This document shows, in pieces, positions 1,851-18,742 of a stretch of DNA of 50,461 nucleotides; position 1 is the stretch's first letter; each line of letters starts with the position of its first letter. The position numbers and the translations under genes are program-made. The DNA lies in assembly GCA_003551645.1 (NCBI GenBank), contig PUND01000114.1, positions 1 through 50,461 on the forward strand, in the 5' to 3' direction. The notes below the pieces were generated by a model. That model saw only the letters and a program-made list of their open reading frames with translations. It did not search any database and was not told the DNA's origin. Source of the stretch: Phycisphaerae bacterium (lineage in GTDB: Bacteria; Planctomycetota; Phycisphaerae; SM23-33).

Positions 1851-2690
1851 ATGTTTAAGGTTCTGCAAAACGAGGAGCTGGCCCCGGATGTCCATCGGCT
1901 GGTGGTCGAAGCCCCGCTGGTGGCGGCGGCACGCGAGCCGGGACAGTTTGTAATCGTCCGCCCCGAGGAAGGCGCCGAGCGGATACCCCTTACCATCGCC
2001 CACGCCGAACGTGAGCAGGGCACCATAACGCTCGTCGTCCAGGCGGTCGGGCACACGACTCGACTGATAGCCGAAACGCCCGTCGGCGGCGGCATACTCG
2101 ACGTGGCAGGCCCGCTCGGAAAGCCCACGGAAATCCGCAACTGGGGCAAGGTGGTCTGCATCGGCGGCGGCGTTGGGACCGCGGTGCTTTACCCCCTGGC
2201 CGAGGCGCTGGCCGAGGCGGGCAACCACGTAGTTACCATTATCGGCGGCAGGACGGAAAAACACCTGATTATGCGCGACGAGCTGGCCGCCATCAGCGAC
2301 GAGCTGCTACTGACCACCGAGGACGGCTCGGCCGGCGCCAGGGGCTTCGTGACCGCCGAGCTTGAGAAGCTGCTTTCCGACCAGACCACCCGACCGGACG
2401 CGGTGTACGCCGTCGGGCCTGTGCCGATGATGGCCGCTGTAGCCGACATGACCCGCCCGCACTCACTCAAGACAATCGTAAGCTTGAACCCGATCATGGT
2501 TGACGGGACCGGCATGTGCGGCGGCTGCCGCGTGAGCGTCGGCGACGAGGTGAAATTCGCATGTGTTGACGGGCCTGAGTTCAACGCCCACCAGGTGGAC
2601 TTCAGTGAGCTTTCCACACGCCAGCGGACCTACCAGGAAGAATACTGCCGGCTGGACGAGCAGCTACGCGACAAAGAGAAAGGCAAATGA
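1851..2690 (+). CDS. Sulfide dehydrogenase / ferredoxin-NADP+ oxidoreductase alpha-like subunit (NfnA/SudB-like FAD/NAD-binding)
   Basis: Start ATG 1851 (caggag RBS) preferred over track start 1686; MFKVLQNEELAPDVHRLVVEAP, GQFVIVRP, GGGVGTAVLYPLAEAL, C-terminal GTGMCGGCRVSVGDEVKFACVDGPEF; stop overlaps next start (ATGA). Confidence 0.9.
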   Translation: MFKVLQNEELAPDVHRLVVEAPLVAAAREPGQFVIVRPEEGAERIPLTIAHAEREQGTITLVVQAVGHTTRLIAETPVGGGILDVAGPLGKPTEIRNWGKVVCIGGGVGTAVLYPLAEALAEAGNHVVTIIGGRTEKHLIMRDELAAISDELLLTTEDGSAGARGFVTAELEKLLSDQTTRPDAVYAVGPVPMMAAVADMTRPHSLKTIVSLNPIMVDGTGMCGGCRVSVGDEVKFACVDGPEFNAHQVDFSELSTRQRTYQEEYCRLDEQLRDKEKGK

Positions 2691-4090
2691 CCGAGAAGCT
2701 TTCGCCCAAAGACCGAATGGCCATCGACCGGGTTGAGATGCCCGAGCAGGACCCGCAGGAGCGGGCCGCGAATTTTAGTGAGGTCAACCTGGGCCTGCCC
2801 GAATGGGCGGCCATTCAGGAGGCCAAGCGCTGCATCCAGTGCAGGAACCGTCCGTGCGTCGCCGGCTGCCCGGTGGCGGTGCGCATACCGGAAATGCTGG
2901 AGGCGGTCGCCGAAGGCGACTTCGCCACCGCCGCGGAGATACTCCGCGCCGACAACGCCCTGCCGGCCACCACCGGACGGGTCTGCCCCCAGGAGGAGCA
3001 GTGCGAGGGCGTCTGCATTCGCGGCAACAAGGGCGAGCCGGTGGCTATCGGCTGGATTGAGCGGTTCGTGGCCGACTGGGCCGACGAACACCTCGACCCG
3101 GACGAGGCGCCCGCCGAGGAGACCGGCCGCAGCGTCGCCGTCATCGGCTCCGGTCCCGGCGGCCTGACCGCCGCGGGAGAGCTTGCCCGGCTGGGTCACG
3201 ATGTCACCGTCTTCGAGGCGCTGCACGCGCCGGGCGGCGTGCTGCGTTACGGCATACCGGAGTTCCGGCTGCCCAAGCGTATCGTGGACCGTGAGTTGGA
3301 GAACCTCCGCTCGCTGGGCGTGAAGATTCAGTGCAACGTCATCGTCGGCAAGACCATCACCATAAGCCAGGTGATGGAGCAATTCGACGCGTGCTTCATC
3401 GCCAACGGCGCCGGGCTGCCGATGTTCCTGAACCTGCCCGGAGAGAACCTCAAGGGCGTTTATTCGGCGAACGAATACCTGACCCGCGTGAACCTGATGC
3501 GCGCCTACGAAGATCGTCCCGGCGGCACGCCTGTCGCCCGCGGCGCTACAAGCGTGGTCTTCGGCGGCGGAAACACCGCCATGGACGCCGTGCGGACATC
3601 GAAACGGCTCGGCTCACGGCGAGCGGTAATCGCCTACCGTCGCGGACGCGAGGAAATGCCCGCACGCGCCGAGGAGATCAAGCATGCCGAGGAGGAAGGC
3701 ATCGAGTTCATGTTCCTGGTTTCCCCGCTGGAGTTTCTGGGCGACGCCGACGGCTGGGTCCGCGCGGTGCGGCTGCAGCGGATGAAACTTGGCGAGCCGG
3801 ACGATTCCGGCCGACGCCGCCCCCAGCCGGTAGCCGGGAGCGAGTTCGAGCTGCCCTGCCAGCTTGCGATACTCGCCGTCGGCACCCAGGCAAACCCCCT
3901 GCTGACCGCCACAGTGCCGGAGATGGAGCTTGGCCGCTGGGGCAACATCGTCACCGACGACAACCACATGACCTCGATGCCCGGCGTCTTCGCCGGCGGG
4001 GACATCGTCCGCGGCGGAGCGACCGTCATCCTTGCGATGGGCGACGGCAAGGAAGCGGCGCGGAACATCGACGATTACCTTGGGAAATAG
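2687..4090 (+). CDS. NADPH-dependent glutamate synthase small-subunit-like / NfnB-like flavoprotein
   Basis: CIQCRNRPCVAGCPV, CPQEEQCEGVC, VIGSGPGGLTAAGELA, VFGGGNTAMDAVRTSKRLGS, VFAGGDIVRGGATVILAMGDGKEAA. Confidence 0.92.
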   Translation: MTEKLSPKDRMAIDRVEMPEQDPQERAANFSEVNLGLPEWAAIQEAKRCIQCRNRPCVAGCPVAVRIPEMLEAVAEGDFATAAEILRADNALPATTGRVCPQEEQCEGVCIRGNKGEPVAIGWIERFVADWADEHLDPDEAPAEETGRSVAVIGSGPGGLTAAGELARLGHDVTVFEALHAPGGVLRYGIPEFRLPKRIVDRELENLRSLGVKIQCNVIVGKTITISQVMEQFDACFIANGAGLPMFLNLPGENLKGVYSANEYLTRVNLMRAYEDRPGGTPVARGATSVVFGGGNTAMDAVRTSKRLGSRRAVIAYRRGREEMPARAEEIKHAEEEGIEFMFLVSPLEFLGDADGWVRAVRLQRMKLGEPDDSGRRRPQPVAGSEFELPCQLAILAVGTQANPLLTATVPEMELGRWGNIVTDDNHMTSMPGVFAGGDIVRGGATVILAMGDGKEAARNIDDYLGK

Positions 4091-4364: not shown

Positions 4365-6215
4365 TTACATCCGCAGGGCGTCGGCAACTTCCTGCGGCGA
4401 AGTGACACCGGCACGGAGTTTTTCGACGGCGGCTTGCCCGAGCAATTCTCTTTCGGGCTTGCCCAGTAAGCGTCGGATCGATTCGGCGTCCGCCCTGGAC
4501 CTCAGGCCAAGCCGCATTGCCTGGGTCTGGTCTCGAATTGCGAACACCGCCGTCCGCCCGGCGTAGCCGGAGCCGTCACACACATCACAGCCGACGGGCG
4601 TGTATGCACCAAAGTCCTCCCGCTCCCCCAGGCCGATAGCGGCAAGCTGGTCGTCACCCAAGGTAATCTCTCGCCGGCACTCCGGACATATCGTGCGTAC
4701 CGCCCGCTGGGTAATGACGCACCGTAACAGGCGCGCCGCCAACCACTCGCCGACGCCCATGGCGACAAGCTCAACAATGGCGGCCGCCGCGTCCGTCGCA
4801 CGCATGCCGGCCAGGACGGTCGCCCCGTCCTCCGCGGCAGCCAAGGCGGCCGAGGCGACCGGAGGTTCGGTAAGATCTTCGATCAACAGGGTGTCGCAGT
4901 CCATCCCGGCCGCGGCTCGGGCCGCCTCGCCAAAGGGCGTGCCGCCGGAGGCCGTCGGCACCTGCAAGACGCCCTCAAGCGGCGTCGCCGGCGGTTTCTC
5001 AACGGCGATGACGCTGCGGTTCAGCCGCACCCCCTCCCCCGCCAGTGCTCGCAGCGTGGTCCGCCTGCCGCTGCGAGGCGGCGCTGTTACCAACACCAGA
5101 CCGCCAGGTGCATCCAGAACTGCTCGCACGCGGGCAAGCTGCTGGGCGTCAAATCCCAGATCCGAAAGGCCGACGGGCGGCGCCGACGGCGATACCTGCA
5201 GCAGCAACTTTTCGCCGCGAAGCGTCGGACAGGTTGACAGCCGAACCTCGACGTCGCGACCTTCCACGGTCCTGGCGAAGCTGCCAAGCAGCGGACGGCC
5301 TCCGCCGGCCGGCACACCGGCAAGCGCCTTTATGTGTTCTACCACATCGATCCCCCCCTTACCGGCCAGCCGCGGACGGTACCTGTCCCGCTCAACAAGA
5401 CCGCGGGCGGACCTCATCAGGACCGCGTAACCCTCTCCCGACGGGTCCAGGTGCACGTACTCAGCGCCGTTTGCCAGAGCATCGCGCAACATGACCTCGA
5501 CCAGCGCATCCGGGGCATCCGGCAGAGCCGGCTGCCGGACGGGTGGCTCGGCCTCCTCCGGGGCCGGCGGCTCTTCCGGCTCCTTCGGCTGTTCCGAGGC
5601 CTCCTGTTCCGACGGTTGTTCGGGCGACTCCGGCGGAGCCGGCATCTCCGATACTTCATCATCCTGATTCTCTTCGGCTTCGGTGCCCCATGCCGCGGGT
5701 GCCTCGGACTCGGCGGCTAGTTGCTCGGACGGCTCCTGCTCGGCAGGGGCTTCAGCAGCCGCTTCAGCCGCCGGCTCCTCTGCCGTTTCCGGTTCGACCG
5801 GTGTTTCCACTGACTCGGTCTCGGCCTCGGGACCGTCCATATACGGCTCCTCCGCCTCAAGCGGGTGATCGGCGGGCGATTGGTTTTCGCCGATTTGCTG
5901 GTCTTGCCCGTCGGTGTCGTTGACCGGCAGCGCGGTTGGCCGTCTGTCCTGCCGGTGTCCGGCGTCCGGCTGTTCGGGCTGGTATTCGCCTTCTGGCTCA
6001 TCGCCGTTGCCTGTGGCGACCTTGGCCATTATCTGCGCCAGATCGATACCCTGATTCTTGAGGAATTCGATGAGCTGCCGCTCGGCGATGCGGACCGGCC
6101 CGTCGGACAGGCGTTTGAAGGGCAGCCAGCCCTTATCCATCCATTCAACGACTGTCCCGGGCGTTGTCTGAAGCAATTCCGCGATTTGGTACGTCGTGAA
6201 AAGACGTTCGGCCAT
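4365..6215 (-). CDS. HTH-domain protein fused through an acidic Pro/Glu-rich linker to a degenerate GspE/PilB (T2SS/T4P ATPase)-like domain
   Basis: N-term LFTTYQIAELLQTTPGTVVEWMDKGWLPFKRLSDGPVRIAERQLIEFL (MerR/excisionase-like HTH); C-term follows GspE order: LVLVTAPPRSGRRTTLRAL (altered Walker A), DTLLIEDLTEP (altered Walker B), CPECRREI...CDVCDGSGYAGRTAVF (zinc motif kept). Confidence 0.8.
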   Translation of the reverse strand: MAERLFTTYQIAELLQTTPGTVVEWMDKGWLPFKRLSDGPVRIAERQLIEFLKNQGIDLAQIMAKVATGNGDEPEGEYQPEQPDAGHRQDRRPTALPVNDTDGQDQQIGENQSPADHPLEAEEPYMDGPEAETESVETPVEPETAEEPAAEAAAEAPAEQEPSEQLAAESEAPAAWGTEAEENQDDEVSEMPAPPESPEQPSEQEASEQPKEPEEPPAPEEAEPPVRQPALPDAPDALVEVMLRDALANGAEYVHLDPSGEGYAVLMRSARGLVERDRYRPRLAGKGGIDVVEHIKALAGVPAGGGRPLLGSFARTVEGRDVEVRLSTCPTLRGEKLLLQVSPSAPPVGLSDLGFDAQQLARVRAVLDAPGGLVLVTAPPRSGRRTTLRALAGEGVRLNRSVIAVEKPPATPLEGVLQVPTASGGTPFGEAARAAAGMDCDTLLIEDLTEPPVASAALAAAEDGATVLAGMRATDAAAAIVELVAMGVGEWLAARLLRCVITQRAVRTICPECRREITLGDDQLAAIGLGEREDFGAYTPVGCDVCDGSGYAGRTAVFAIRDQTQAMRLGLRSRADAESIRRLLGKPERELLGQAAVEKLRAGVTSPQEVADALRM

Positions 6216-6580: not shown

Positions 6581-7708
6581 CTAGGATTTTTCCTTCTTTT
6601 CTTCCTGCTGCTTTTCCAGGTCGCCGCCGGCGATTGCGGCGATCTCCTTGAGCCGTTCGCGGATGGGAATGTGCTGGGTGCACTTTTTCTCGCAGGCCCC
6701 GCACAATGAGCATGCCAGGGCATCCTCGGGCGACAGCGCCCAGTGATACTTCAGCCGGTCGGTGATGTGCCTTTCCTCCCGGCCCTGGAGGATGCGCATG
6801 TTGTAGGCATCCATCATCTTGGGTATCTCAACGCCCAGCGGGCACGGCAGGCAGTACCCGCAGCCGGTGCAAAGCCCTTCGAAGCTGCCGAGTAGTTTTT
6901 CGCGTATCCGCTCTACGTGCTCCTGGGGGTACGGCTGGAAGTCCTCGACGGCCTCGACCGCCTCATCCACGTGCTCGGTGGTGGTGCAGCCGACCAGCGC
7001 GCAGGTGATATCGGGGTGCGAGACGTTGAAGCGTATCGCCGCGCTTACCACCGAGGGGTCTTCCGGTTCCCGGAGGAAGTCGAAACGCTCGGCGTTCTGC
7101 GGGATCATCCCCCCGCCGAGGGGGTTCATCGTCACCACGCCCATGTTCTTCTCGGCCGCGGCCTGTACCGCCACCTCACGGAACGGGAAGTTGATGGCGC
7201 AGTAGCCCAGCGTTACGCCCTCGAAAGGTCCTTCATCCAGGACAACCTTCAGCTCGTCGCCGATCAGGTGGCTGGAGACCACCACGTGCTCCACCAGCCC
7301 CTCCTCCTTTGCCTTCAGCGCCTCCGCGACCGCCCCGCCGTCCTGGCGCTTCTTCCACTGGTCAAGCGTCACCAGACACCAGATGTGGTGGAAGTGCAGC
7401 TTCTCGACGCCCAGCCGCTTCAGCGACTTCTCCAGGTCCTTGCGGAACCCGGCGGCGTCCGAGGCCATCGACTTGCTGGACAGATAGAACGTGCCCGGGG
7501 TCATGTGGGCCACGGCCGCCCCGACGATGTCCTCGCTCTTGTCCTTGCAGTAGCCGGGGGCGGTGTCGAAGTAGTTGATTCCGCGCTTGTAGGCGTGCAG
7601 CACGACCTCGGCGTTGGCGTCTATATCCTCGGGGTTGTCGAACCGCATCCCGCCGAAACCGACAACCGAAATATCCTTACCTGTGCTTCCGTATGGCTTG
7701 GTCCACAT
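6581..7708 (-). CDS. Aldo/keto reductase with C-terminal 4Fe-4S ferredoxin-like domain
   Basis: MWTKPYGSTGKDISVVGFGGMRFDNPEDID..., INYFDTAPGYCKDKSEDIVG, CTGCGYCLPCPLGVEIP, CSLCGACEKKCTQHIPI; start at 7708 preferred over 7876. Confidence 0.9.
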   Translation of the reverse strand: MWTKPYGSTGKDISVVGFGGMRFDNPEDIDANAEVVLHAYKRGINYFDTAPGYCKDKSEDIVGAAVAHMTPGTFYLSSKSMASDAAGFRKDLEKSLKRLGVEKLHFHHIWCLVTLDQWKKRQDGGAVAEALKAKEEGLVEHVVVSSHLIGDELKVVLDEGPFEGVTLGYCAINFPFREVAVQAAAEKNMGVVTMNPLGGGMIPQNAERFDFLREPEDPSVVSAAIRFNVSHPDITCALVGCTTTEHVDEAVEAVEDFQPYPQEHVERIREKLLGSFEGLCTGCGYCLPCPLGVEIPKMMDAYNMRILQGREERHITDRLKYHWALSPEDALACSLCGACEKKCTQHIPIRERLKEIAAIAGGDLEKQQEEKKEKS

Positions 7709-14633: not shown

Positions 14634-15938
14634 TTACACCCAATCGACCTTCAGCAGGTGGACCGAGCAGGAGATACACGGGTCGTAAGCCCGTACGAGC
14701 ATCTCCAGGTCGTGCTCGATCTGGTCCTGCGAGCGGTCCTCGATGACCTCCGGGACGTATTTCTGCATGTCCCGGTCGATGTTTCCGAGGTTCATGCCGG
14801 TGGGGATGATGCAGTTGGCCTCTGTGCAGACGCCGTTTTCGTCGTAGGTGTAGTCGTGTATCAGCAGCCCGCGCGGCGCCTCGGTGGCGCCGACACCCCG
14901 CCCGGCCTTTGGCACCACGTTCGGCGCGAGCTTTTCCTCGGTCAGGTCGGCAGCGATAAGCTCATCCAGGCAGTTGACCGCCTCCTGGTACGCGTGGGCG
15001 GCCTCAACCACCTGCGCGACGTTGTTCAGGTACGGGTTGTGGCAAGGCGCCTCCAGCCCCAGCGCCTTGGCCGCGGCGACGCCGAACTCGTTGAGCTGGG
15101 CGCTGTTGTTGTTGAACCGCGAAAGCGCCCCGACCGCGAACGACTCCTCCACGTTGTAAACGTGCTTGCTGGTGGAGTGCTCGACGCACTTTTCCTTGAT
15201 AAACTCCAGGTAGTCGCGGTGGTCTATCTGTCCGGCCTTCGAGCTTTTCAGCTCACCGTTGTAGATGGCATACTCATCGTCGCGGACCAGGGAGATGTCC
15301 TCGCGCTCTCGCTCGAACGACGGGAACTTATCCAGCACGCCGGAGATGGTCTCGACCGTGGCCTCGATGTCGGCGCGGGCGTCGGCGTACAACTGCTTCA
15401 GTTCCACAAGGCCCTTCTTTGGCGGGACATAGGTGAACCCGCCAGGGACCAGCGAGATCGGGTGCACGTGCCGGCCGCAGAGTACCGCGCAGGTGTAGTT
15501 GGCGAGCTTCTTGAGCTTCAGCGCCCGCTTGACCACCTCCGGGTGCGACGACGCCAGCGGGATCACGCTCGGTGCGCCGAAGGCGTCCGGCGCGGCCAGG
15601 AAATACACGTGCAGCACGTGGCTCTGGAGCACCTCGGCGTACATCAGCAGCTTGCGCAGCGTCAGCGACTCCGGCGAAAGCTCCAGGCCGAAGGCCTCGT
15701 CGGTGGCCAGAATGCTCGCCGTCGTATGAGCGACCGAGCAGATGCCGCATATCCGGCAGGTCAGCAGCGACGTGTCCCGCCAGCGCAGGCCCTCGATCAT
15801 GCTCTCGAAGACCCGCGGGGTCTCGACGATCTCCAGAACGCACTTCTCGACCTTCCCATCGGAGGCCCGCACGACGATGTTGCCGTGTCCTTCCACGCGG
15901 GTGAGGTGATGAACATTGATATCCAGTGACTTCGCCAT
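14634..15938 (-). CDS. hydA: [NiFe] hydrogenase large (alpha) subunit, probable group 3b
   Basis: LLTCRICGICSVAHTTAS and C-terminal DPCISCSVH nickel-binding motifs; gene context hydB-G-D-A. Confidence 0.92.
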   Translation of the reverse strand: MAKSLDINVHHLTRVEGHGNIVVRASDGKVEKCVLEIVETPRVFESMIEGLRWRDTSLLTCRICGICSVAHTTASILATDEAFGLELSPESLTLRKLLMYAEVLQSHVLHVYFLAAPDAFGAPSVIPLASSHPEVVKRALKLKKLANYTCAVLCGRHVHPISLVPGGFTYVPPKKGLVELKQLYADARADIEATVETISGVLDKFPSFEREREDISLVRDDEYAIYNGELKSSKAGQIDHRDYLEFIKEKCVEHSTSKHVYNVEESFAVGALSRFNNNSAQLNEFGVAAAKALGLEAPCHNPYLNNVAQVVEAAHAYQEAVNCLDELIAADLTEEKLAPNVVPKAGRGVGATEAPRGLLIHDYTYDENGVCTEANCIIPTGMNLGNIDRDMQKYVPEVIEDRSQDQIEHDLEMLVRAYDPCISCSVHLLKVDWV

Positions 15939-15960
15939 CGATTATCTCCCGTAGTCGGAG

Positions 15961-16737
15961 CTACTGCTTCTCCACTCGCGCCTCTGTGGGCGGCTGCGAA
16001 ACGTCGTAGACGCCGTTGAACAGTCGGAACTCGGTCAGCACGTCGTCTATCGTCAGGCCGAACTCCTCGAGCACGTCGAAGGCGGCCTGGTTGTTCGGGT
16101 CGCTTATCAGCCCGCGGCAGGCGTAGCACCGCCCGCCGTAGCTGGGGCACCAGGCGTCGCAGCCGGCGCGGGCCAGCGGACCCATGCAATACTGGCTCTT
16201 GTGGTACAGGCACTCGTTCTCGCGGAGCTTGCACTCCACGCAGACCGGGTGGTCCGGTATCCGCGGCGTGCGACCGGCGAGCAAGCTGGTTACGACCTCC
16301 AGGAACTCCTGCCGCGGAATCGGGCAGCCGTGGACCTTGTAGTCCACCTTGATCGCCGCCTCAACCGGAAGCGCCTGGGAAGTCTCGTACCAGTCGGCGC
16401 TGTCGCCATATACGGTCTTCATCGACTTTTCGAGGCCGCGGAAGTTCTTGAGCACGTTCAGCCCGCCCGTGCAGGCGCACGCGCCGAGAGCGACCACGAT
16501 TCCGGCCTTGGAGCGTATGGTCTCCAGACGCTTGCGGTCGGATTCGCGAGTGAAGGCGCCCTCGATAAAGGCCACGTCGTAGCTGTCCGCCTTGTCGTCG
16601 ATCGCCTCGCGGAACTCGACGATGTCCACCGCGCCGAGGATGTCCAGCAGCTCGTCCTCGCAGTTGAGAACCTGTAGCTGGCAGCCCTCGCAACTGGTGA
16701 AATCGTGAAACGATATAGTCGGTTTGCTCTCTGCCAT
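15961..16737 (-). CDS. hydD: [NiFe] hydrogenase small (delta) subunit
   Basis: FTSCEGCQLQVLNCEDELLDIL, ALGACACTGGLNVLKNF, CPIPRQEFLEVV, Cys-rich C-terminus. Confidence 0.9.
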   Translation of the reverse strand: MAESKPTISFHDFTSCEGCQLQVLNCEDELLDILGAVDIVEFREAIDDKADSYDVAFIEGAFTRESDRKRLETIRSKAGIVVALGACACTGGLNVLKNFRGLEKSMKTVYGDSADWYETSQALPVEAAIKVDYKVHGCPIPRQEFLEVVTSLLAGRTPRIPDHPVCVECKLRENECLYHKSQYCMGPLARAGCDAWCPSYGGRCYACRGLISDPNNQAAFDVLEEFGLTIDDVLTEFRLFNGVYDVSQPPTEARVEKQ

Positions 16738-16802
16738 CGGCTGTCACTCCTCGCGGCCGCAACGGCCGCGCTTCTGTTCCAAAGCAAATCCAAGCGGCGC
16801 CC

Positions 16803-17654
16803 CTAGATGCCCTCCCGAAGGCGCATCACCTCGGCGTAGCTGAATATTGGCCCGTCCTGGCAGACGTACACGTTGCGTATCTGACAGTGTCCGCACTTGC
16901 CCAGACCGCACTTCATCCGCCGCTCCAGCGAGCAGTAGATGTTGTTCTTGCGAAGGCCCATCGCCAGGGCCTCCAGGACGGTGAACTTGAACATAACAGG
17001 CGGACCGATGATGAACGCGGCCGTGTTGGCCGCGTCCGGGCGGTCTATCTTCCTGAAAAGCGTGGTTATGACGCCGGTGTTGCCGGTCCAGTCATCGTCG
17101 CCTCGGTCCACGGTAACCAGGAACTCGCAGTCGTCCCTGTCCCGCCAGGCATCCAGATCGTATGCGTAGAGCAGGTCCTTCGGCGTGCGGGATCCGTAGA
17201 GTATGGTCACCCGGCCGAACTTCTCGCGGTTCTCCAGCGCCGTGAGGATGAAGCTCCTGCACGGAGCCAGGCCCAGTCCGCCGGCGACGAACAGCAGGTC
17301 CATGCCTTCCATGGCGTCCATGTCCAGCCCGTTGCCCATAGGTCCGCGCAGCCCCACGGTGTCGCCGACGTTAAGCTCGTGCAGCGCGTTGGTCACGTCG
17401 CCCGCCGAGCGGATGCACATCTCCAGGTCGTCGCGCTTACCGCCGGAAGAGCATATCGAAATCGGCGCCTCGCCGATGCCGAATACGCTGACCTCCATGA
17501 ACTGTCCGGGCAGATACTCGATGCCCTGCCCATCCTCGAACTCGAAGCGGAAATACTTCTCCTGCTCGGTGAAATCCTTTGCCTCGACGATCTTCGCCGC
17601 CCTCGGAAGGTAAGGCGAAACCGCTTCCGCCGGCTGTTGCGTTGCCTGACTCAT
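16803..17654 (-). CDS. hydG: Hydrogenase gamma subunit, FAD/NAD(P)-binding
   Basis: MSQATQQPAEAVSPYLPRAAKIVEAKDFTEQEKYFRFEF, GQFMEVSVFGIGEAPISICSS, FVAGGLGLAPCRSFI, CGLGKCGHCQIRNVYVCQDGPIFSY; start 17654 overlaps preceding stop (ATGA). Confidence 0.9.
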   Translation of the reverse strand: MSQATQQPAEAVSPYLPRAAKIVEAKDFTEQEKYFRFEFEDGQGIEYLPGQFMEVSVFGIGEAPISICSSGGKRDDLEMCIRSAGDVTNALHELNVGDTVGLRGPMGNGLDMDAMEGMDLLFVAGGLGLAPCRSFILTALENREKFGRVTILYGSRTPKDLLYAYDLDAWRDRDDCEFLVTVDRGDDDWTGNTGVITTLFRKIDRPDAANTAAFIIGPPVMFKFTVLEALAMGLRKNNIYCSLERRMKCGLGKCGHCQIRNVYVCQDGPIFSYAEVMRLREGI

Positions 17655-18742
17655 TGTGACTCCTCCCGGGCGGCCGCGATTTCCATCGCCGAAACCGCCG
17701 CCTCGTCGGCTATCTGTTGGTATGCCTCCAGGATCGATATATCGGCCACGCAGTGCACGCTGCATCGCCCGCATCCGACACAGCCGGGCTTGCCGGTCTG
17801 CTCGTATATGAACTTGCCCTTACGGAACATCCTGTGCCTCAGCCGGCTGGAGCGATGCTCGCGGAAGTTCTCCCCGCCGGCGACCTCGGCGAACGTGTGA
17901 AGCTGGCAGGAGTCCCACTGCCTGCGGCGCACGCCGCTGGCGGCGTCCAGATTCAGCTTGTCCTGAACGTCGAAGCAGTAGCACGTCGGGCAGACGTTGG
18001 TGCACGTTCCGCAACTGAAGCATCGCCGGGCGACGGCGTCCCACAGCAGCGAATCGTAGCTCTCGGACATCAGTTCCGGCAGGTAGCGCGTGTCGTAAGG
18101 CAGTCGCTTGGGCAGGTTGGAGGCCTTTTCGTTGTCGAAGGCCTGTTTGGCCTTGTGGTCGTCGCCGGCGGCCTGGGTGAACATGCCCGCGGCCTGGTGC
18201 AGCTTGGAGCCGGCGTCGCTGCCTACCTCGACGTAGTACCTGTCTCCGAGGTCAGTCATGAACAGATCCCAGCCGCCTTCGGGCGGCTCGGTGGTGCGCA
18301 TGTCGGCCATGAACTGCTCGTCGTTGACATAGCCGCGGATGTTAATGCCGATAAGCAGCGTGGCGTCTCGCTTGGTGGCGTAATAGGGGTCCGCCGGCTC
18401 GGCGCGCATGGCCGCGTCGGTGGTGGCTATGGCGTGCAGGTCGTAGGGATGGGCGCCGAGAATCACGGTCGGCTCGGCCTGTATCGGCGCCTCCCCGGTG
18501 GCCGGGTCGCGCCCGCCGAAGCGAAGAAGCTCCTCGTACATCGGGTGAAGGAACTTCTTCGGCGGCAGGATGGTGATGTCGTAATCCATCCTTATTCGCC
18601 CGACATCCTCGGGCGTCTCGATAAACTCGAAGGCGAACTGGTGACCTTTGGCCACCGGCGCCGCCAGCCGATACTCGCCCATCAGGAATCGGGCGAAGTC
18701 GGCCAGTTTGTCCTTGGGCAGGATCTGTGGCAGCATCTGCAC
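17651..18742 (-). CDS. hydB: Hydrogenase beta subunit, 4Fe-4S dicluster domain
   Basis: CFSCGTCTNVCPTCYCFD and CVGCGRCSVHC iron-sulfur motifs; first of hydBGDA. Confidence 0.9.
   Translation of the reverse strand: MQMLPQILPKDKLADFARFLMGEYRLAAPVAKGHQFAFEFIETPEDVGRIRMDYDITILPPKKFLHPMYEELLRFGGRDPATGEAPIQAEPTVILGAHPYDLHAIATTDAAMRAEPADPYYATKRDATLLIGINIRGYVNDEQFMADMRTTEPPEGGWDLFMTDLGDRYYVEVGSDAGSKLHQAAGMFTQAAGDDHKAKQAFDNEKASNLPKRLPYDTRYLPELMSESYDSLLWDAVARRCFSCGTCTNVCPTCYCFDVQDKLNLDAASGVRRRQWDSCQLHTFAEVAGGENFREHRSSRLRHRMFRKGKFIYEQTGKPGCVGCGRCSVHCVADISILEAYQQIADEAAVSAMEIAAAREESQ

Follow-up and report, generated by a model that had tools for sequence, protein, structure and literature searches.

The HTHp gene and its surroundings

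The window, that is, the whole stretch of 50,461 nucleotides from a Phycisphaerae bacterium analyzed here, carries on its reverse strand a gene whose product joins a helix-turn-helix (HTH) domain, through an acidic linker, to a region resembling the ATPases GspE and PilB. Proteins of this kind, HTH-pseudo-PilB proteins, are hereafter called HTHp. The features of the gene, together with a nearby gene pair that served as a synteny marker only, are as follows.

4365..6215, reverse strand: HTHp gene (HTH, acidic linker, pseudo-GspE/PilB), 616 aa, ATG start, coordinates including the stop codon
6223..6228, reverse strand: Shine-Dalgarno sequence AGGAGG of the HTHp gene, 7 nt upstream of the ATG
6051..6203, reverse strand: winged HTH of the MerR/BldC/excisionase type, residues 5-55
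5520..6020, reverse strand: Glu/Pro/Ala-rich linker, predicted to be disordered, residues ~66-232
5181..5510, reverse strand: N2D-like domain, residues 236-345
4368..5180, reverse strand: RecA-like ATPase domain without ATPase motifs and C-terminal part, residues 346-616
5055..5084, reverse strand: Walker A remnant APPRSGRRTT, residues 378-387 (canonical GPTGSGKTT)
4986..5003, reverse strand: Asp box remnant VEKPPA, residues 405-410 (canonical EDPVE)
4863..4889, reverse strand: Walker B region LLIEDLTEP (canonical VGEIRD), with IEDLTEP at residues 445-451 and Asp in place of the catalytic Glu
4788..4808, reverse strand: His box remnant GMRATDA (canonical TLHTNDA), with RATD at residues 472-475
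4677..4688, reverse strand: CPEC, first half of the tetracysteine (Cys4) motif, residues 510-513
4578..4589, reverse strand: CDVC, second half of the tetracysteine motif, residues 543-546
1851..4090, forward strand: NfnA/NfnB-like pair (DHODB-type FAD/FeS protein and Fer4_20/Pyr_redox_2 protein)

In Pfam, T2SSE was matched at residues 238-610 of the window protein (E 3e-44, 151 bits, cut-off 24.9) and HTH_17 at residues 5-55, just below its cut-off (E 2e-5, 25.2 bits, cut-off 27). The NCBIfam models of GspE and PilB matched at 170 bits, far below their equivalog cut-offs, and the matches among PDB sequences were PilB, PilF, and GspE. PilB also headed the Foldseek matches of a full-length model, which, with an AF2 pLDDT of 49 and a two-row alignment, bears on the fold class only. 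An N1D-type domain was not found by Pfam in the window protein or in the other HTHp members, whose N-terminus consists of HTH_17 and the linker. All motifs quoted in the original prediction (Walker A, Asp box, Walker B region, His box, CPEC, and CDVC) were recovered in the window protein, as was its Glu/Pro/Ala-rich linker (39 E, 29 P, and 25 A among the 166 residues 67-232). The substitutions are Lys to Arg in Walker A, EDPVE to EKPPA in the Asp box, Glu to Asp at the catalytic position, and His to Arg in the His box; the Walker B region is the least damaged, the change from Glu to Asp being conservative.

The assembly of the window's genome (2.83 Mb, 94% complete) contains 12 T2SSE matches. 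Intact pilB/gspE genes are present elsewhere in it: five copies are full-length, motif-intact GspE/PilB proteins, and these mostly adjoin genes for platform proteins, pilins, or PilT-like proteins. The remaining copies are shorter PilT-like proteins, one degenerate protein (L010), and HTHp. L010 (541 aa; locus L100, G000:C76:5861-7486) has a hydrophobic N-terminus and a Walker A sequence, GRRRTGVTST, that has lost its Lys, and its gene immediately follows an intact PilT-like gene. Kinship of this second degenerate copy with HTHp was rejected by the tree, in which L010 grouped with the intact copies on a very long branch. Elsewhere in the window, the gene adjoining HTHp (6581-7708) encodes an aldo/keto reductase whose C-terminal domain is of the 4Fe-4S dicluster type, and four genes at 14634-18736 look by eye like the large, small, FAD/NAD-binding, and FeS components of one multi-subunit NiFe hydrogenase.

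A lineage-restricted family with altered ATPase motifs

HTHp sequences were collected by a search of relatives and then by an HTH profile search. They were present in 19 of the 35 genomes of the window's family (f1) and in three genomes of a second family (f12), both belonging to Phycisphaerae, and spanned at least 14 related genera, while an evenly drawn set of 392 genomes from across the phylum yielded no further carrier. A wide score gap separated them from unrelated HTH proteins of about 200 residues. In trees built with and without the HTH columns, all HTHp clustered together and separately from the intact PilB/GspE (supports of 99 and 100); HTHp has a single origin. The nearest neighbors of the window protein in the tree were those of L085 and L086 (support 92), both of which are flagellum-linked.

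The HTH is the most conserved part of HTHp, with a mean pairwise identity of 50%; the values are 36% for N2D, 35% and 33% for the remainder, and 22% for the linker, which varies from 33 to 203 residues in length. Family-invariant residues occur in the HTH (R4, Q10, A12, L15, L31, L48, F51, and L52) and in N2D (A246, R268, L283, and G319), and none was found in the ATPase domain. N2D is present in all full-length members. Two members from f12 (L093:468-1211 and L097:8325-9029) end after N2D and lack the ATPase domain; because a convergent gene follows closely behind the end of N2D, we regard them as HTH-N2D proteins, in which the ATPase domain is dispensable. L095 was rejected as a further member of this type, its ATPase domain continuing in another frame. 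C-terminal truncations were seen in L091, where the Cys4 region is lost, and in L094. A pair of HTHp copies per genome was found in two members of a single genus (L090/L092 in G207 and L091/L098 in G115).

Because the window copy scores below the Pfam cut-off, its HTH could have been a chance match. This was rejected at the family level, since 16 of 19 HTHp members matched HTH_17 independently and the HTHp profile matched MerR-like, Xis, and BldC chains in the PDB, which together make the HTH secure for the family; RacA was also matched (E 0.04). A model of the HTH (AF2 pLDDT 74, built on 2 sequences) led in Foldseek to BldC and NmlR with a best E of 0.03. Model and profile were thus closest to BldC, NmlR, and Xis, and MerR/BldC relatives have been solved on DNA. 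The fusion of a MerR/excisionase-like HTH to a GspE/PilB-like region, as originally proposed, was therefore confirmed, and HTHp is by sequence a MerR/BldC-type protein with putative DNA binding, predicted from homology. The nearest HTHs outside HTHp belong to HTH-REC response regulators. One HTH_17-REC regulator of 189 aa is encoded in the window's genome (L106:7690-8259, G000:C71), and HTH proteins of about 189 residues, which carry the nearest HTH to that of HTHp, are widespread in Phycisphaerae.

Pilus motors are ATP-driven machines; in one reported case, PilB also serves as a signal. Motifs were counted over the 17 HTHp members that possess an ATPase domain, T2SSE being matched in Pfam by 18 of all 19 members. 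The Walker A Lys is kept in one of the 17 and is Arg in 11, the Asp-box Asp and the His-box His are kept in none, the second Glu of the Asp box is found in two, and the catalytic Glu is kept in nine and replaced with Asp in seven. The single protein with the Walker A Lys, that of L085, is without the Asp, catalytic-Glu, and His boxes, and no homologue with intact Walker A and B was found. Two arginine fingers have been described in N2D of PilB (PMC5424180); at the positions assigned to them by motif spacing, which is our inference, the second (R325 in the window protein) is kept in 6 of 19 members, and the first is Ser in the window protein and Arg in 2 of 19. Over 104 columns that are nearly invariant in intact copies, retention in HTHp averages 30% in the ATP-site motifs and 47% elsewhere, and the catalytic boxes decay differently from one HTHp lineage to another. 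The pseudo-ATPase reading of the original prediction is thus supported throughout the HTHp homologues. To judge from these residues, the ATPase part can no longer hydrolyze ATP, and its binding of Mg-ATP is probably gone as well. The window protein belongs by homology to the T2SSE superfamily, yet we do not call it a PilB, because it lacks the catalytic features that define PilB/GspE. The tetracysteine motif, which had been singled out as retained, is indeed kept in 15 of the 17 proteins, the window protein included, but it is not a hallmark of HTHp: given this count and the two f12 members without an ATPase domain, neither Cys4 nor the ATPase domain defines the family, whereas HTH plus N2D does.

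In two sets of close relatives, dN/dS of HTHp was mostly 0.2-0.4 in every folded domain, the ATPase domain included. Between L080 and L083, it was 0.39 for HTHp, 0.41 for the adjacent fliK, and 0.17 for flgE. Since these values resemble those of neighboring fliK, HTHp is maintained; it evolves fast yet stays under purifying selection. A single decayed copy or pseudogene was rejected on the basis of this selection and the monophyly of HTHp, which is a real, maintained, and lineage-restricted family.

Flagellar gene clusters around HTHp

In 7 of 17 genera, HTHp was located at or near the head or the tail of one flagellar supercluster, the head lying before fliK-flgD-flgE and the tail after flgK-flgL-TPR-FliT-like. 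In L077, L080, L083, and L085, HTHp lies directly or almost directly upstream of fliK-flgD-flgE-(PilZ protein)-flgF-flgG on the same strand, with two ORFs between HTHp and fliK in L080 and che genes preceding HTHp in L085. HTHp of L088 ends the run flgG-flgA-flgH-flgI-flgJ-FlgN-flgK-flgL-TPR-124aa and overlaps the preceding gene. In L093 and L097 of f12, it is convergent with the flgK-flgL-TPR tail, near flgJ-N-K-L in the former and near flgL and the TPR gene in the latter. A single isocitrate/isopropylmalate dehydrogenase gene (Iso_dh) separates HTHp from the flagellar tail in L086, where the genes run NfnA-NfnB / HTHp / Iso_dh / FliT-like-TPR-FlgL-FlgK.

Flagellar neighbors were not seen for the window HTHp or in the remaining genera within the fetched flanks, several of the contigs being very short. 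The window retains NfnA-NfnB / HTHp from the L086 order, and contig C137 of the window's genome begins within Iso_dh and runs on through FliT-like-TPR-(glycosyltransferase)-FlgL-FlgK-...-FlgE-FlgD-FliK. Because the L086 order splits between the window and C137 in this way, we consider that the window HTHp and the flagellar tail were once together and that a rearrangement between HTHp and Iso_dh probably separated HTHp from the supercluster.

Flagellar clusters with 4 kb flanks make up an estimated ~2% of the window's genome. Against this background, flagellar linkage in 7 of 17 genera has a p value of ~2e-8 (1e-5 at a background of 5%) assuming independence, although the genera are not fully independent. 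FlhA was found in 21 of 22 HTHp carriers versus 11 of 19 non-carriers across f1 and f12 (Fisher p 0.006) and was also associated with HTHp within f1 alone (Fisher p 0.03), shared ancestry being ignored in both cases. The sole carrier without FlhA is a genome that is 73% complete. Ten flagellated f1 genomes are without HTHp, and flagella therefore do not need it.

We also sought a pilus or secretion operon context. No T4P/T2SS genes (platform protein, pilins) were adjacent to HTHp in the window or in any of the 17 genera. In the original prediction, the protein was taken as a possible regulator or adaptor of a pilus/secretion system rather than its motor. Regulator rather than motor still holds, whereas the pilus/secretion link gives way (0 of 17 genera versus 7 of 17 for flagella), and a flagellar link in its place is partly supported.

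Further proteins recur in these clusters. At the end of the flgK-flgL operon, immediately ahead of HTHp, stand a TPR protein and a protein of 110-124 aa (L115:396-728, L088:8867-9241, and L086:12054-12401 for the latter); one copy of the small protein is weakly FliT-like, and the two may be a chaperone or partner pair. Between flgE and flgF lies a protein of 376-381 aa (L085:14701-15831, L077:11017-12162, and L115:11473-12615); a PilZ domain in the copy from L085 makes it likely that the flagellum is controlled by c-di-GMP.

Proposed role and comparison with known systems

Our preferred reading, to which we assign an even chance, is that HTHp would be a DNA-binding flagellar regulator in which an HTH is fused to a dead PilB/T2SS ATPase serving as a platform for oligomerization or partner sensing. 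A type IV pilus/T2SS extension ATPase would have been duplicated and then fused to a winged HTH of the MerR/BldC type, and its ATPase part, N2D above all, would have been kept as a folded platform. The HTH would bind DNA, its likeliest targets being genes of the flagellar hook/filament stage, at whose cluster ends HTHp tends to lie. We infer DNA binding, targets, direction of control, and oligomerization alike. Overall, a dead pilus motor has probably taken on a new role as a regulator, and flagella are its likely target. A checkpoint function is possible but doubtful: the dead motor would sense the state of a nanomachine, either a pilus or a flagellum, as it assembles and would signal to DNA via the HTH, with HTH plus N2D as the minimal form.

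If HTHp were instead an adaptor of pilus or secretion systems, the pseudo-PilB would dock on T4P/T2SS platforms or on intact PilB and signal the pilus state through the HTH, for instance in a switch between pili and flagella. The PilB-type fold and the Cys4 motif are retained, every HTHp carrier examined also has an intact PilB/GspE, and nucleotide-free PilB has been reported as a signaling protein in Myxococcus (PMC11656802). We nevertheless consider this unlikely, as no genus examined has a T4P/T2SS gene beside HTHp, the Arg fingers that contact neighboring subunits are mostly lost (Arg in 6 of 19 and 2 of 19), N1D, the named N-terminal regulatory domain, is missing, and two members have no ATPase domain at all.

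The resemblance of the HTH profile and model to RacA and BldC, which are cooperative or structural DNA binders, and the very long disordered linker would also fit a RacA-like tether, in which the HTH would cover or hold a stretch of the chromosome while the C-terminal part attached to a complex in the membrane, for instance in placing the flagellum or the chromosome. By analogy this could hold, but a membrane-binding segment or partner was not found in HTHp and the linkage to flagellar operon ends is equally consistent with a gene regulator; we rate the tether very unlikely. Least probable of all is a relic, that is, a decaying ATPase behind an HTH that alone, if anything, still matters. The lineage-specific decay of the catalytic boxes, the C-terminal truncations in L091 and L094, and the absence of any ATPase domain from L093 and L097 point in this direction; however, frames of ~500 codons stay open in at least 14 genera, Cys4 is kept in 15 of 17 proteins, four N2D residues (A246, R268, L283, and G319) are invariant, and dN/dS of 0.2-0.4 within the ATPase domain too already disfavors it.

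If the flagellar regulator reading is true, HTHp would clearly exemplify the conversion of a secretion ATPase into a gene regulator, being maintained, catalytically dead, equipped with its own DNA-binding domain, and placed at flagellar operon ends. It would also offer a starting point for learning how Phycisphaerae control their flagella, and the two ATPase-less members would point to N2D as the working part. We found no earlier report of an HTH-pseudo-PilB fusion and no specific account of flagellar control in Phycisphaerae among the open-access papers covered.

Among known proteins, PilB/GspE (G. metallireducens PilB, 5tsg/5tsh; M. xanthus PilB, 3jc8) share with HTHp an N2D and a RecA-like domain, colinear over ~375 residues, and the zinc-type Cys4 motif. 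In HTHp, however, an HTH and an acidic linker replace N1D, the Walker A, Asp box, His box, and Arg fingers are lost, and the genes lie outside T4P/T2SS loci. The winged HTHs of BldC, excisionase, and MerR are of the same HTH_17 type. Classic members of that group are small or bear ligand or coiled-coil parts, and we know of none with a secretion-ATPase domain. The HTH_17-REC response regulators of Phycisphaerae also combine an N-terminal HTH with a C-terminal signaling domain, but this is a receiver domain instead of a pseudo-PilB, and these proteins of ~200 aa are far more widespread. RacA, the chromosome-anchoring protein of B. subtilis, likewise joins a MerR-type HTH to a separate part, in its case for anchoring; it has a coiled coil rather than an ATPase fold and acts in polar anchoring during sporulation. 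Finally, M. xanthus PilB has been reported as a signaling protein that controls exopolysaccharide (PMC11656802). Although it is itself an active motor without an HTH, it provides a precedent for signaling by the PilB fold apart from motor work.
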